Assembly: GCA_943349825.1 (NCBI GenBank)
Contig: CALQZQ010000003.1
Coordinates: 62,001-126,000 of the forward strand
Source: Candidatus Peribacteria bacterium
GTDB lineage: Bacteria; Patescibacteriota; Gracilibacteria; UBA1369; 2-02-FULL-48-14
DNA: 64,000 bases
Direction of reading: 5' to 3'
Shown here: positions 12,662 through 35,699 of the stretch, one piece after another
Position numbering within the stretch: the stretch's first letter is position 1
Layout: each line of letters opens with the position of its first letter
Position numbers and translations under genes: made by a program
Notes under the pieces: model-generated
What the model was told of the DNA's origin: nothing
Database searches by the model: none
What the model saw: the letters and a program-made list of their open reading frames with translations, nothing else

Positions 12662-14335
12662 TCACTGGAATTCTTCACTGTACTCATCACGATCGTAAAT
12701 AATATAAGGAGCATCGGGAGAATAGGTCGTTAAAATAGGCTTTCCCGTTTTCATACAAGTTCTTTGGTAAAGCTGAATCCCTCCAAGAATTTTAGCCCGC
12801 TCATCCATTCTTTCTTGGTATGTTAGCCGTGGAAGAGGGGCGTCAAAAGTCCTGTATTTTGTTAATTCCTGAGGAATGATCCGAAAAGGCTGGCCGGACG
12901 CAGCGCTTTCCACGAGCAAGGACTCGTTACTGCTAGGAAGTCCGTCGAGCAAAGCGGCAGCTGGAGTGGCTCCCAAAAATTCTTTTTGCTCTTCCTCAAA
13001 CCAAGTAAAGCCTTGAGCCAAGGCTTCTTCTTTCGTGAGAGGGAAATATCTTTGGGCTACAGAACGGTTGTAAGGCATGGGGGTAAGGATGATCGGAAAA
13101 AATTGCCCCCACTCACCTGTGTTTTGCATGTGCTCAATAATGCGTACCATCATGCGTTCATACTCTTCTTTCGTGTACTGTTTATTTAAAATGCAGTACT
13201 GCTTTCTTCGAAGACCGGAACACCCAAAACTGTCACGGGTGGCATCGCAACTGTAGCAGTAGAGCAAATTGGAACTTCCGTCGCGACACTGCACTGAAAA
13301 CAAAATGCCGTAAACATTAATGACGCAAGTGGAAGACTCGTAAACCAACTGCGCTTTTCTCCCAGAATAGGAATAGTCCATGCAGTCGTTCGCTCCTTCG
13401 TAAAGATTGAAACAGTACTTTAGATTTTCCCCATTTTGGATAAAAAAACTCTCTGTGACATGACGTGATTCAGTCAAAAAGCTCCCGCTACAGTCCTCCA
13501 CTTGATGAAGTGTGGCATGCGGACGCGGTGACGTCCTCATAAGTTCCTCAAATCGCTCCAGATACCGCTGACGTTCCCTCCACGAACTGCCTTTGAAATT
13601 CTGAATGAAAAGTTCGTATTCGGCCTTGGTCTTTTGCTCGTTGAAAAGGCAATACTCCCGTCCTCGCAAATTGGTGCAACCAAAACAGTTTTTACACGAG
13701 CGACAGAAGGCAAGAAAGAAACTGTCACTGCAGTTCTCGCAAAACTGACTGCTTTGCAAATTGTAGCAACGCAAGCAGTCCGTACAGTCGTAACATTTTT
13801 CTGATTGCAAGGTAATGGTGCACTCCAAACAATCCTTAGAACCCCAAGAGTCTTCGCAATACATACAGTCTTCAGCATTGGACATGCTGAAGGCCATGTA
13901 GCAGTTTTTGTTGTCTGAAAGATTGTTGGCGTATTCACAGTTTTCGTTCCGTAAAGCAATACGGGCATATTTTGGTACTCGATCATTCAGCTCTTTAAAT
14001 TGTTCAAAGAATGGGCGGTTGAAGTCAAAATCCTGCCCATACGCCAAGGGATCCCAGTGATCGCTATTCCAGTCCTCATTTCTCATCACGGGAAAAGGCG
14101 CACTTTGAGGATGCATGGACAAAATAGCTTGCCCATCCGGATATGCAGGCCGCTGAAAAAGCGCCGTTTGATTACGAAAAACCAATCGACTCCGAAGCCG
14201 GCAAGTAGGACAAAAACTGGGCTGAGGAACGAGGAATTTCCTGCCCTCAAAAATGGGACTGACGTGCTGATAAAAAACTAAATCTTCATCGGTAATTTCA
14301 AAAGAACTCCGGCAGTTTTTGCAATTTTGAAGCAT
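12662..14335 (-). CDS. Cys-rich repeat protein of a family common in CPR genomes
   Basis: 557 residues from the ATG at 14335; longer in-frame starts upstream lack conservation-like sequence. The N-terminus has a CKNC ... CPTC zinc ribbon. Residues about 140-270 hold a dense series of Asn/Asp-Cys-x-x-Cys steps (NCYM, DCMYC, KDCLEC, KCYDC, FCENC, SCKNCFGC). Two longer blocks repeat: REYCLFNEQKTKAEYE and KQYCILNKQYTKEEYE. The second is followed by GEWGQFFP and YFPLTKEEALAQGFTW. I have seen this last block in many unnamed Patescibacteria proteins, so this is a known but unexplained family. Metal binding is likely from the Cys pattern. CACAAT lies six bases before the ATG. Divergent from the TrmB-type regulator. 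Confidence 0.8.
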   Translation of the reverse strand: MLQNCKNCRSSFEITDEDLVFYQHVSPIFEGRKFLVPQPSFCPTCRLRSRLVFRNQTALFQRPAYPDGQAILSMHPQSAPFPVMRNEDWNSDHWDPLAYGQDFDFNRPFFEQFKELNDRVPKYARIALRNENCEYANNLSDNKNCYMAFSMSNAEDCMYCEDSWGSKDCLECTITLQSEKCYDCTDCLRCYNLQSSQFCENCSDSFFLAFCRSCKNCFGCTNLRGREYCLFNEQKTKAEYELFIQNFKGSSWRERQRYLERFEELMRTSPRPHATLHQVEDCSGSFLTESRHVTESFFIQNGENLKYCFNLYEGANDCMDYSYSGRKAQLVYESSTCVINVYGILFSVQCRDGSSNLLYCYSCDATRDSFGCSGLRRKQYCILNKQYTKEEYERMMVRIIEHMQNTGEWGQFFPIILTPMPYNRSVAQRYFPLTKEEALAQGFTWFEEEQKEFLGATPAAALLDGLPSSNESLLVESAASGQPFRIIPQELTKYRTFDAPLPRLTYQERMDERAKILGGIQLYQRTCMKTGKPILTTYSPDAPYIIYDRDEYSEEFQ

Positions 14336-14412
14336 AAGTTCATTGTGAAGTAGTGTGCCCAATAAACCAGCAAGTGCTACAGGATGCCCGCCAGTTAATC
14401 TGTTATTACATG

Positions 14413-14441
14413 TCGAAACTTTCGGCAAATAACGCTAGAAT
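14413..14441 (+). promoter_or_regulatory. TrmB-type regulator promoter, leaderless type
   Basis: TCGAAA (14413-14418), a 17-base spacer and TAGAAT (14436-14441), then six bases to the ATG. Confidence 0.55.
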
Positions 14442-14447
14442 GTATGC

Positions 14448-15191
14448 ATGTTTGAGAAAATTCTTACCGAAAACGGCTTCAGCCCCAAAGAAGCCGCCCT
14501 CTACCTCACCGTTTTGGAAGCGGGGGAAATGACTCTGGGCAGAGCGGCGGAAAAGTCTCGCTTAAAACGCTCGACTGTCTACAGTCTGGTGGAGGCTCTC
14601 AAGAAAAAAGGCGTCGTTTCAACGAACAAACGGCGTGGCAGTACTTACATTTCAGCTTTATCGCCGAGACTCCTCATCGAACATTTCGAAAATTCCGCTG
14701 CCATGGCCAAATCCGTACTCCCTCAGCTGATGGAGTTGGCCTACACTTCACCCGTCAAACCTCGCATCCGCTTCGCAGAAGGTATGCAGGCCATCAAAGA
14801 TATCCTCTTTGAGGCTTCCTCCAGCAAACAAGACTACATCGGCTTCATCGATTACACCCTAATGCCAAAAGAAATCTATCGCTACATTCGAACCAAAGTA
14901 GCTCCGCGGCGAGCAAAAGCAGGCATCACGGTCCGTTTGTTGATGCCACGCAACGAAACCGACCTAAAAGTGTTGAAGGAATACACTCAAAGCATCGAGC
15001 ACCGCCTCGTAGACTTCCCCTCGCGTAAAAATCACATCGAGATTTTGCTCTACGAAAACAGCAAAATCGGCTTCATGTCTTATGTGAAAAATGAGCTTTT
15101 CGGCGTGGTGATCGATTCGGAAGCCATCCACCAAACCCTGCGGGATTTGTTTGAATTGATTTGGCAGCTGACAAAAACTACAGAAGATTAG
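14448..15191 (+). CDS. TrmB-family transcriptional regulator
   Basis: 247 residues. Residues 1-75 are a winged helix-turn-helix of the TrmB kind: FSPKEAALYLTVLEAGEMTL, then AAEKSRLKRSTVYSLVEALKKKGVV and a wing with KRRGSTYI. The remainder resembles the TrmB/PLD-like effector domain (FAEGMQAIKDIL near residue 108, VRLLMPRNE near 165, VVIDSEAIHQTLRDLFELIW at the end). TrmB proteins in archaea sense sugars; many CPR genomes carry such regulators with unknown ligands. The gene is divergent from the Cys-rich gene, which may be a target, but this is only positional. Its end overlaps the small minus-strand gene by four bases. Confidence 0.85.
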   Translation: MFEKILTENGFSPKEAALYLTVLEAGEMTLGRAAEKSRLKRSTVYSLVEALKKKGVVSTNKRRGSTYISALSPRLLIEHFENSAAMAKSVLPQLMELAYTSPVKPRIRFAEGMQAIKDILFEASSSKQDYIGFIDYTLMPKEIYRYIRTKVAPRRAKAGITVRLLMPRNETDLKVLKEYTQSIEHRLVDFPSRKNHIEILLYENSKIGFMSYVKNELFGVVIDSEAIHQTLRDLFELIWQLTKTTED

Positions 15192-15391
15192 CCCTCTAAG
15201 TCGTCGCAGCTAGGATGAGCAAAAGGCTTTCCCGCTTCCATGGCCCTCCCTCCAAAACCAAGGCCTTGAACCTGCTGACGTACAAACTCCGCGTCAGAGT
15301 GAGTGTACTCATCTTGTCCTGGACGATAGCCCATACGAGCTTCAAATGTTTCTGTGGCGGCAAGACCTCCTTCTGATGAACCGTTAGCCAT
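15188..15391 (-). CDS. Small hydrophilic protein, 67 residues, unknown
   Basis: The product starts MANGSSEGGLAATETFEAR and is acidic and Gly-rich, without membrane segments. A TATACT hexamer lies 13 bases before the ATG on the minus strand. The reading frame is clean and convergent with the regulator gene by four bases, a spacing used repeatedly in this window. No family is recognised; it could still be a chance frame. Confidence 0.45.
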   Translation of the reverse strand: MANGSSEGGLAATETFEARMGYRPGQDEYTHSDAEFVRQQVQGLGFGGRAMEAGKPFAHPSCDDLEG

Positions 15392-15478
15392 AAAATCGTT
15401 TTTGAGTATAAAGGCGCCGCACTATAAAATGGACAAGAGCTAAAGTCAAGCTGCGCTCGCTTGCCAGCGCCAAGCCCT

Positions 15479-15484
15479 TATAAT
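15479..15484 (+). promoter_or_regulatory. -10 box ahead of the threonine leader peptide
   Basis: A perfect TATAAT lies 12 bases before the leader ATG. No good -35 at 16-18 bases is visible, so the upstream half of the promoter is uncertain. Confidence 0.55.
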
Positions 15485-15496
15485 AAGATTCGAGCA

Positions 15497-15562
15497 ATGA
15501 AGAACTTCACGACAACTACAACGACTACCACAACTCCCCGCTCGGGAGCGAAGTCGCTGTGA
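15497..15562 (+). CDS. Threonine-rich leader peptide, 21 residues
   Basis: The frame ATG AAG AAC TTC is followed by nine threonine codons in a row (15509-15535) that use all four Thr codons except none left out by more than chance would allow: ACG, ACA, ACT and ACC all occur. It then reads PRSGAKSL and stops at TGA. The layout matches the thr operon leader of enterobacteria. The last codons lie inside the sequence that can form the antiterminator (15543-15556), so a ribosome that reaches the stop would cover it. Its product probably has no function of its own; the act of translation is the sensor. The mechanism is inferred from sequence complementarity only. Confidence 0.7.
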   Translation: MKNFTTTTTTTTTPRSGAKSL

Positions 15563-15616
15563 TGTAAATTTTCTTCATCCACTCGCCGACTTCTCCCGGA
15601 GAAAGTCGGTATTTTT
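15543..15616 (+). terminator. Transcription attenuator with competing antiterminator
   Basis: Terminator: CCGACTT-CTCC-c-GGAG-a-AAGTCGG (15586-15609) followed by TATTTTTT. Antiterminator: CGGGAG (15543-15548) and AAGTCG (15551-15556) are together complementary to CGACTTCTCCCG (15587-15598), 12 pairs with a two-base bulge, using the 5' arm of the terminator. A small hairpin CGCT-CGGG-AGCG (15539-15550) can hide the antiterminator strand. Stalling at the Thr codons would leave the antiterminator free and allow read-through into the gene at 15641. Confidence 0.72.
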
Positions 15617-15640
15617 TATTAACCCTAACCCTTTTATCTC

Positions 15641-15823
15641 ATGTGCAACTACGAACTCCGTTCAGAAGGAAGCCACTCTTCAGAACTCAAGCCATACACG
15701 CCTTTAGAGCTAGCCCCAGCCCTCAGGGATGAAATCGCCGCCTTGGACACTGCATCCAAAGTTCGCTTGAGCTCAGCTCCACGTGATCCGTTTGGAGACG
15801 GCGATTACATCTCTATGACCTGA
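15641..15823 (+). CDS. Small protein downstream of the attenuator, 60 residues, unknown
   Basis: The product starts MCNYELRSEGSHSSELKPY and is acidic, without signal peptide or membrane segment. It begins 24 bases after the attenuator T-run, so it is the first gene that read-through would express. It is followed after 25 bases by the pheS -10. I recognise no family. If the frame is not coding, the attenuator would control pheS and the genes beyond it directly. The attenuator makes a transcribed region here likely, but the coding call is moderate. Confidence 0.5.
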   Translation: MCNYELRSEGSHSSELKPYTPLELAPALRDEIAALDTASKVRLSSAPRDPFGDGDYISMT

Positions 15824-15825
15824 TC

Positions 15826-15854
15826 TATACACCATAGTTTGGCTCTGCTAGAAT
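15826..15854 (+). promoter_or_regulatory. pheS operon promoter, extended -10
   Basis: TATACA (15826-15831), a 17-base spacer, and TAGAAT (15849-15854) preceded by TGC. The pheS ATG follows 16 bases later. Confidence 0.65.
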
Positions 15855-15870
15855 AGCGCCACTTGAATTT

Positions 15871-16914
15871 ATGCACGATTCTTTAGGCGAATTACAGAAA
15901 GAAGCGGTCGCTGCCCTGGAAAAGGCGGCATCCTTGGCCGCACTCAAAGAAGTGGAGAAAAATTTCTTGGGAAAAGGAGGTAAAGTAACAGGCCTTTTGA
16001 AAGGCCTCAAAGACCTGCCCGACGAAGAAAAGAAGAGTTTTGGAAAAGCCGTAAACGACCTGAAAGTCGCGCTGGAAGGGCTCTACCAAAGCCGCTCCCA
16101 GATCCTTGAACGTGAAGAAATCGATCGCACCCTCGAAAACGACTGGATCGACCTGACCGCTCCCGGAACCCAGCACGAAACCGGCCACATCCATCCTCTT
16201 TCTGAAACGCAGGAAGAAGTGGAGCGTATTTTCCAACAAATGGGCTTCACCATTGTGGACGGACCTGAAGTAGAAAGTGAATTTTACAATTTTGAAGGAC
16301 TAAACATCCCTTCCTACCATCCAGCCCGCGACATGCAGGACACCTTTTTTATAGACAAAGCTCCGCATCCAACGGAAGGAAAAATGGTCCTGCGCACCCA
16401 CACGTCCCCCGCGGGGCAAGTGCGCGCCCTCATGCAACACGGCGCTCCCCTACGCGTGATCTGCCCCGGTCGCTGTTTCCGCAACGAGGCCACCGACGCT
16501 TCTCACGAACACACTTTCAACCAAGTGGAAGGCCTGCTGATCGACGAAGGCATTTCCCTCGCTCATCTCAAAGGAGTGATGTTGGAGTTTTTAAAACGAC
16601 TCTTCAAACGTGACCTCAAAGTGCGCTTCCGCCCGGGCTACTTCCCCTTTGTGGAACCCGGCTTGGAACTGGACATGTCCTGTCCATTCTGTGACCAAAA
16701 AGGCTGCCGCGTCTGCAAACACAGCGGTTGGATTGAATTCATGGGCTGCGGAATGACCCACCCTCACGTTTTAAAAACAGCCGGCATTGATTCCGAAAAA
16801 TACCAAGGCTGGGCCTTCGGTTTCGGCCTCACTCGCCTCGTGATGATGCGCTACGCGATCGACGACATTCGTCATTTGCAAAACGGAGATCTACGCTTTA
16901 ACGAACAATTCTAA
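15871..16914 (+). CDS. pheS: Phenylalanine--tRNA ligase alpha subunit
   Basis: 347 residues, normal length. The N-terminal coiled coil (residues 1-90) contacts tRNA, and the catalytic class II core follows. Motif 2 is visible as GRCFRNEATDASHEHTFNQVEG, and motif 3 as GWAFGFGLTRLVMMRY near the end. FRPGYFPFVEPG is the Phe-pocket region. A four-Cys insertion, CPFCDQKGCRVCKHSGW, may bind zinc; it is present in many bacterial PheS proteins. With PheT it forms the alpha2-beta2 enzyme that charges tRNA-Phe. The stop codon overlaps the next start (TAATG). Confidence 0.97.
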   Translation: MHDSLGELQKEAVAALEKAASLAALKEVEKNFLGKGGKVTGLLKGLKDLPDEEKKSFGKAVNDLKVALEGLYQSRSQILEREEIDRTLENDWIDLTAPGTQHETGHIHPLSETQEEVERIFQQMGFTIVDGPEVESEFYNFEGLNIPSYHPARDMQDTFFIDKAPHPTEGKMVLRTHTSPAGQVRALMQHGAPLRVICPGRCFRNEATDASHEHTFNQVEGLLIDEGISLAHLKGVMLEFLKRLFKRDLKVRFRPGYFPFVEPGLELDMSCPFCDQKGCRVCKHSGWIEFMGCGMTHPHVLKTAGIDSEKYQGWAFGFGLTRLVMMRYAIDDIRHLQNGDLRFNEQF

Positions 16915-17189
16915 TGAATCCTAATCTGCTGACCGCCGTCGGAGTCCTGGGAAACATCCTCGTGGTGGTTTCCTACCTGCCTCAGATTCGTAAGATCATC
17001 GTGACCAAAAAATCCGACGACTTGAGTCTGGGAATGTGGGGCCTCTACGTACTCGGAGACATACTCCTGCTCGTCTACGCTGCCGCCACCGGCGACACCA
17101 TCTTCACCGCCCTCTTCACGCTCTTCACCATAGAAAACCTGGTTGTCCTCTATCTCGCCTTCAAATACGCTAAAGTGAAACCCCAATGA
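16914..17189 (+). CDS. PQ-loop (SemiSWEET-like) membrane protein
   Basis: 91 residues with three hydrophobic segments (about 6-24, 40-58, 64-84). The first ends in YLPQIRKI, the proline-glutamine motif of the SWEET/PQ-loop family, and KSDDLSLGMW matches the conserved stretch that follows. SemiSWEET proteins are sugar transporters that act as dimers of three-helix bundles. The gene sits between pheS and pheT with overlaps on both sides, which is an unusual place. The substrate is unknown. Confidence 0.8.
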   Translation: MNPNLLTAVGVLGNILVVVSYLPQIRKIIVTKKSDDLSLGMWGLYVLGDILLLVYAAATGDTIFTALFTLFTIENLVVLYLAFKYAKVKPQ

Positions 17190-35247: not shown

Positions 35248-35699
35248 TGGTGGAGATGACGGGAGTCGAACCCGTGTCCAAGAAGGAAGTGAGAAACTAT
35301 CTACATGTGTAGCTCATCCTGTATACGCTGAGCTCATAAAGGTTGAGCGAAAACAAACGCAGCGCGTCTTCGAATTTTCAGTGGACGAGTGGAACACGAG
35401 CCCTCGCCAACCTAAGCCCCGAGTATGACACCCAGTCTCTCTCACAGGGCCTCAGAGAGTGGGCGGAACCGCACTAAATGGCAGTTCACCAGAAACTAGG
35501 CAGCAATGGGAACTGCGGCAGCAAAGTGCAAGTTGTTGTTTCCAACAAATGCAGAAGCTTCCTCAGCCAATTGGGCTAGTTTAAGGCTTAGAGTGTTTTT
35601 AGCACTTATAGTGTCTGGACGGGTTAAGGGGTGACCAGACAAACCCCTACATGCAAGCCTCCGACTTCAAATCTTCCTGTCGAAGCCAAGTACATCCCC
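35248..35699 (-). ncRNA. ssrA: Transfer-messenger RNA
   Basis: About 452 nt, ending in an encoded CCA. The 5' end GGGGATG pairs with CATCTCC before CCA to form the acceptor stem (one G-U), and the T-arm GGGTTCGACTCCC is standard. The tag frame ends GCT GCC GCA GTT CCC ATT GCT GCC TAG (AAAVPIAA). Read back in frame it is open to a GCT in AAGTGCTAAAAAC, giving a candidate tag that starts AKNTLSLK and has 35 residues, long for tmRNA. The exact resume codon cannot be fixed by eye. It works with SmpB (721-1164) to free stalled ribosomes and mark the product for proteolysis. Confidence 0.95.

Follow-up and report, generated by a model that had tools for sequence, protein, structure and literature searches.

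An intergenic locus of a Candidatus Peribacteria bacterium very probably carries a leader-peptide transcription attenuator of the classical type, with charged tRNA-Thr as the sensed signal. It lies in a 64,000-nucleotide contig segment (the window), between the gene of a TrmB-like regulator (14448-15191) and pheS. Computational evidence gives good support to the assignment of a classical threonine leader-peptide attenuator to a CPR lineage; it comes without any data on transcripts or expression. The original prediction, made from the letters alone, described a 21-codon frame with nine consecutive threonine codons followed by a terminator, and direct reading of the sequence confirms both. The thr/his-type attenuation logic that it proposed is supported by folding with a masking ribosome, by shuffled controls, and above all by seven further threonine leaders of the same layout. 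The best relatives of this genome are named Ca. Peribacteria or Ca. Peregrinibacteria, in agreement with the suspected CPR origin. The coordinates of the features are collected in Table 1.

Table 1. Features of the threonine leader locus and threonine leaders elsewhere in the order (G000, this genome; G001, sister species)
Feature	Position	Strand	Basis or remark
Promoter-like site TTGCCA-17-TAAGAT	15461-15489	+	Consensus scan, 9 of 12; no transcript data
Leader peptide ORF MKNFTTTTTTTTTPRSGAKSL	15497-15562	+	21 codons; ATG 15497, stop TGA 15560-15562; read from sequence
Nine consecutive Thr codons (ACG ACA ACT ACA ACG ACT ACC ACA ACT)	15509-15535	+	Sequence
Inner protector hairpin CUCCC/GGGAG	15534-15548	+	15534-15538 with 15544-15548
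Strand 2, antiterminator strand (GGGA + GAAGUCG), in last leader codons	15544-15556	+	Duplex with strand 3
Intrinsic terminator GCCGACTTCTCCCGGAGAAAGTCGGT	15585-15610	+	Then ATTTTTTAT, U-tract to 15619
Strand 3 (terminator 5' arm)	15587-15597	+	Folding
Strand 4 (terminator 3' arm)	15598-15609	+	Folding
60-codon ORF, no recognized family	15641-15823	+	First ORF after terminator
pheS own promoter (TAGAAT at 15849-15854)	15826-15870	+	Also conserved in sister genome G001
pheS	15871-16914	+	Could receive read-through from leader promoter
thrS leader MHIRLNTTTTTTARRVV	G000, L137 / G000:C2 about 9,070-8,960	-	Terminator, then thrS
thrS leader MKFFATTTTTTTVTPEQV	G039		
thrS leader MLQIIKTTTTTAIQ	G020		
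Leader MNAAKIIITTTTTTTIM (Thr + Ile codons)	G018		Before thrA, 601-aa protein
Leader MNKFALIITTTTTTTIM (Thr + Ile codons)	G029		Before thrA, 601-aa protein
Thr + Ile leader and terminator before thrA	L262:2099-2220 and L263	L263 -	G018 and G029
Leader MNRLSFVTTTTTTTTSLRNRG	G001		Before 71-aa unknown
Leader MNNEIHNQFVTTTTTTNLGLR	G020		Before small unknown gene (119 aa); 20-codon frame in between

Leader Peptide and Predicted Promoter

The leader frame contains a single phenylalanine codon against nine threonine codons. Within the threonine run the first and second codon positions are fixed and the third positions are mixed, with all four bases in use; the run is therefore not a simple DNA repeat. 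Such a free third position is as would be expected for selection on the peptide and argues for it. The minus strand of the run reads as nine valine codons, a feature that the first reading of the sequence missed. Runs of at least seven threonine codons occur at three places genome-wide, including the leader, and the other two look like Thr-rich linkers within coding sequence. Any further threonine leader of this genome that carries fewer than five threonine codons in a row would escape the searches used.

The promoter is inferred. Its end is separated from the leader ATG by a gap of 7 nt, and an additional TATAAT motif (15479-15484) lies within it. Transcription is predicted to start within a few nucleotides of the ATG, so that a short frame bearing regulatory codons in a row stands at the predicted transcript start, as is typical of a classical attenuator. 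No Shine-Dalgarno sequence precedes the leader frame, the translation of which is likewise inferred. This is no objection, because Shine-Dalgarno motifs are not enriched in the window (7 of 45 genes, and likewise 7 of 45 for a control position) and Ca. Peribacter riflensis is among the Shine-Dalgarno-scarce organisms in a published survey (PMC10783764). Several promoter-like sites in the window lie very near an ATG, and for these the 5' leaders are expected to be very short or absent.

Terminator, Alternative Pairings, and Proposed Mechanism

The terminator begins 25 nt after the leader stop codon, which places an intrinsic terminator with its U-tract (15585-15619) between the leader and the presumed controlled gene, as in other classical attenuators. 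Like the leader frame and the terminator, the alternative pairings can be read from the sequence itself. The strand in the last leader codons was proposed to pair 12 bases with the 5' arm of the terminator; the pairing itself is recovered by folding, with 11 bp and a 2-nt bulge instead of 12 bases (15544-15547 plus 15550-15556 with 15587-15597). The antiterminator duplex has a calculated ΔG of -15.0, compared to about -13.7 for the terminator. The small protector hairpin that had been considered possible is present, and a larger protector pairing connects threonine codons 15522-15526 (strand 1) with 15552-15556 of strand 2. The leader fold lies 4 standard deviations below dinucleotide shuffles (z = -4.0).

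In the proposed mechanism, RNA polymerase would begin transcription only a few bases away from the leader ATG, with a ribosome following. When threonyl-tRNA is plentiful, the ribosome would reach the stop codon and cover strand 2, leaving strands 3 and 4 to form the terminator. When threonyl-tRNA is scarce, the ribosome would stall within the nine threonine codons and break the pairing between strands 1 and 2, since strand 1 partly consists of the threonine codons themselves. The freed strand 2 would then take up strand 3, and with the terminator blocked, transcription would proceed to the 60-codon gene and perhaps as far as pheS. If the leader is not translated, its long hairpin would form together with the terminator, which makes off the default state. 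The stall itself is an inference.

Simulation of the Switch

The switch is reproduced by computation. The RNA was folded with a ribosome at each codon, masked through 11 nt past the first base of the A-site codon; this footprint is an assumption, and equilibrium folding stands in for folding during transcription. Without a ribosome, the probability of the pairing between strands 2 and 3 is 0.00 and that of the terminator 0.90, in keeping with a protector pairing that holds the default state off. With the ribosome at the stop codon, the antiterminator remains near 0 and the terminator at about 0.9. With the ribosome on the threonine codons, the antiterminator reaches 0.64 to 0.89 before strand 4 is made; an antiterminator that excludes the terminator and forms upon a stall at the threonine codons is thus found in the simulation. 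The terminator prevails in the unmasked RNA and with the ribosome at the stop codon; a ribosome on the threonine codons shifts the balance toward the antiterminator. At equilibrium the antiterminator has a probability of 0.5 to 0.8 (up to 0.82) at four of the nine threonine stall positions. For some stall positions the terminator is still favored at equilibrium, and the switch therefore relies on timing. None of 1200 shuffles of the leader, in which the dinucleotides and the terminator were kept, reproduces the switch.

Threonine Leaders Elsewhere in the Order

A further seven threonine-run leaders of this design are present in the order to which this genome belongs (Peregrinibacteria/Peribacteria), and for five of them the downstream gene is a threonine gene. 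By target, the eight leaders precede thrS in three genomes, thrA in two, and small unknown genes in three. The seven others were found via the region upstream of thrS, followed by an order-wide pattern search with fetched matches; the pattern detects only leaders that begin with ATGA and carry at least six threonine codons. The thrS leader of this very genome is the clearest single support for the finding. The three genomes with thrS leaders represent three families. Such a leader is missing from most thrS genes of the order, being present in 3 of the 59 regions with at least 250 nt upstream.

The terminator starts 20 to 30 nt after the stop codon in all eight leaders, and for each of them the best stalled antiterminator is matched by only 0 to 2.7% of 300 shuffles. 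The early-stage measure of the switch is weak for the thrS leaders of G000 and G020. Across all of the DNA retrieved, among short ATG frames with a run of at least five of one residue, a terminator follows 10 of 12 threonine frames compared to 2 of 28 of all others. Nested starts are counted twice in this comparison, and many loci were fetched by a threonine pattern; therefore, the terminator contrast is evidence and the number of threonine frames is not.

The two thrA leaders are identical from the threonine run through the U-tract and differ in leader codons 3 to 7, which is only modest evidence because the two genomes are close relatives within one genus. The 601-aa protein of G018 passes the NCBIfam cutoff for bifunctional aspartate kinase/homoserine dehydrogenase I without the first 219 positions of the model, and that of G029 has the same Pfam domains. 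In both, the N-terminal aspartate-kinase half is missing, and the homoserine dehydrogenase and ACT domains are kept.

An exchange of T-box and leader peptide is known from elsewhere. Weak T-box matches are found upstream of thrS at L164:273-455 (G025) and L171:279-463 (G013), with 44 and 31 bits at a cutoff of 93. These two genomes belong to one family of the order, other than those with threonine leaders before thrS, and the matches would repeat the exchange within one order.

Probable Controlled Gene and Conservation of the Locus

The 60-codon frame is probably the controlled gene, an inference from its position. Classical attenuators usually, though not by strict definition, act on a gene connected with the sensed amino acid; such a connection is seen for thrS and thrA at the parallel loci and is not evident for the 60-codon frame. 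To this extent the original prediction stands; pheS does lie further downstream, with a promoter of its own that the prediction had not seen. The 60-codon frame has a borderline coding score, and an AlphaFold2 model of its product has low confidence (mean pLDDT of 63) with one helix. Relatives are found neither by DNA search in 89 genomes of the order nor by protein search of the order and the phylum (59 genomes and then 380 of the phylum), and a protein search of phages and viral contigs returns none. The product shows no significant similarity to the 71-aa and 119-aa products behind the leaders of G001 and G020. Threonine leaders before small unknown genes in these two other genomes nevertheless make the 60-codon frame a more credible target. 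That threonine attenuators have been recruited in this order to small lineage-specific unknown proteins (60, 71, and 119 aa in three genomes), besides thrS and thrA, can be put forward only tentatively.

No terminator-like site is listed on the plus strand between the 60-codon frame and pheS, and read-through from the leader could add to pheS and pheT expression. The leader is unlikely to serve mainly for the control of pheS, judged from the conserved promoter of pheS itself in a sister genome without a leader beside the gene. The gene order of this sister species is topA-HU-vapB-like-PIN-52aa-pheS-pheT, and its homology to the window resumes at 15825, i.e., at the pheS promoter; pheS is therefore independent of the leader promoter. 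The stretch from 12662 to 15823 is accordingly either an insertion in this genome or a loss in the sister. The surrounding gene order matches that of the sister, which makes assembly contamination unlikely.

In the comparison of relatives, recommended as a check, the leader locus itself is found in no other genome searched, which leaves no covariation to draw on at this site; the same layout recurs at seven other loci in the order. DNA searches of the order and of plasmids yield no homologue of the leader region; the best match, of 23 nt, looks like chance similarity inside another gene. Orthologous pheS regions carry no leader, nor does the TrmB orthologue of the sister species have one beside it. 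A T-box at the locus was considered and rejected, as the T-box covariance model is not met and no Rfam family matches between 14900 and 17300 up to an E value of 5.

Further features of the surroundings are as follows. The TrmB-like regulator (plus strand) belongs to an expanded family with 10 matches in this genome and several in most relatives. A 67-codon frame on the minus strand (15188-15391) with a good promoter-like site is convergent with the TrmB gene and overlaps its end; it has no family match and a borderline coding score. A 91-aa PQ-loop/SemiSWEET-like protein is encoded between pheS and pheT (16914-17189, plus strand) and is missing from this position in the sister genome. The tmRNA at 35248-35699 (minus strand) is the only Rfam match at gathering level in the window.

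Alternative Explanations

It is unlikely that the locus is a free-standing small RNA or mini-gene, in which a promoter, a structured transcript of 120 nt, and an ordinary terminator leave the downstream gene unregulated. In favor of this reading, the unit from promoter to terminator is compact and strongly folded (z = -4.0), and the 60-codon frame has a borderline coding score and lacks relatives. A plain small RNA, however, needs neither a threonine-coding frame nor an antiterminator. The absence of the switch from all 1200 shuffles, the recurrence of this layout immediately upstream of thrS and thrA at other loci, and the lack of any Rfam match also speak against it. The leader could also sense slow translation in general, caused by drugs or by features of the peptide, instead of threonine. 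Any stall at the threonine codons would free strand 2, and the downstream gene has no obvious threonine function. What renders this reading very improbable is the fit between amino acid and target wherever the target is known, with threonine before thrS and threonine plus isoleucine before thrA.

Thr-rich linker-like stretches elsewhere in this genome, together with the nine valine codons on the opposite strand, leave minimal room for the view that the run is what remains of a surface protein's Thr-rich linker, or that it arose as a repeat by chance, with terminator and pairing as coincidences. This view can hardly be upheld against a short frame with a nearby start and stop, a promoter-like site and a terminator in place, a switch absent from the shuffles, and seven parallel cases. 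The preferred reading remains the threonine attenuator.

Relation to Known Attenuators

In its logic the locus corresponds to the thr, his, and phe attenuators. The thr operon attenuator of Escherichia coli is the thrL leader, and the pheST attenuator of the same organism is the pheM leader with phenylalanine codons. The locus resembles thrL in its run of threonine codons, in the leader stop before the terminator, and in the order of the strand pairings 1:2, 2:3, and 3:4. In contrast to thrL, it precedes an unknown 60-codon frame, lacks a Shine-Dalgarno sequence, carries nine threonine and no isoleucine codons, and has a predicted transcription start almost at the ATG. The leaders of G018 and G029 come closer to thrL, with isoleucine codons as well and a position before thrA. 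The locus shares with pheM the position of a leader-peptide attenuator ahead of pheS and pheT; it differs in its threonine instead of phenylalanine codons, in the separate promoter of pheS, and in the sister pheS without a leader beside it. An assignment as pheST operon attenuator is rejected, with one phenylalanine codon compared to nine threonine codons and a conserved promoter belonging to pheS.

T-box leaders (RF00230) also sense tRNA charging and often control synthetase genes by a terminator; in contrast, sensing at this locus would need translation of the leader frame. Leader peptides were known in 2010 from Proteobacteria and Actinobacteria, to which the authors of that study added the hisS/hisZ leader peptides of bacilli (PMC2965389). 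The thrS leaders described here are similar to the latter in that a leader peptide would control an aminoacyl-tRNA synthetase in a lineage belonging to neither Proteobacteria nor Actinobacteria, and differ in phylum and amino acid. For CPR/Patescibacteria, the open-access literature yields no paper on leader-peptide attenuation. This is consistent with the prediction that no such device has been described there; absence is not established, as subscription journals lie mostly outside the search. The logic is known; its occurrence in this lineage is unexpected, and its target is unusual.

Implications

Few Patescibacteria can be grown, and for this reason little is known about how their genes are regulated. 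No thrC was found in this genome, and threonine is therefore probably obtained by uptake in this species. If all eight leaders function as their design suggests, ribosome-coupled attenuation serves to sense an amino acid in at least one order of Patescibacteria, the sensed amino acid is one that this species probably takes from outside, and the leaders act without a Shine-Dalgarno sequence, starting almost at the 5' end. Should the small unknown proteins prove to be targets, scarcity of threonine would activate not only its supply but also a fast-evolving, dedicated response. If true, the finding would bring a deep branch of the Bacteria within the known range of leader-peptide attenuation and would offer a testable readout of a nutrient monitored by a CPR cell, as well as a pointer to unknown starvation-responsive genes.
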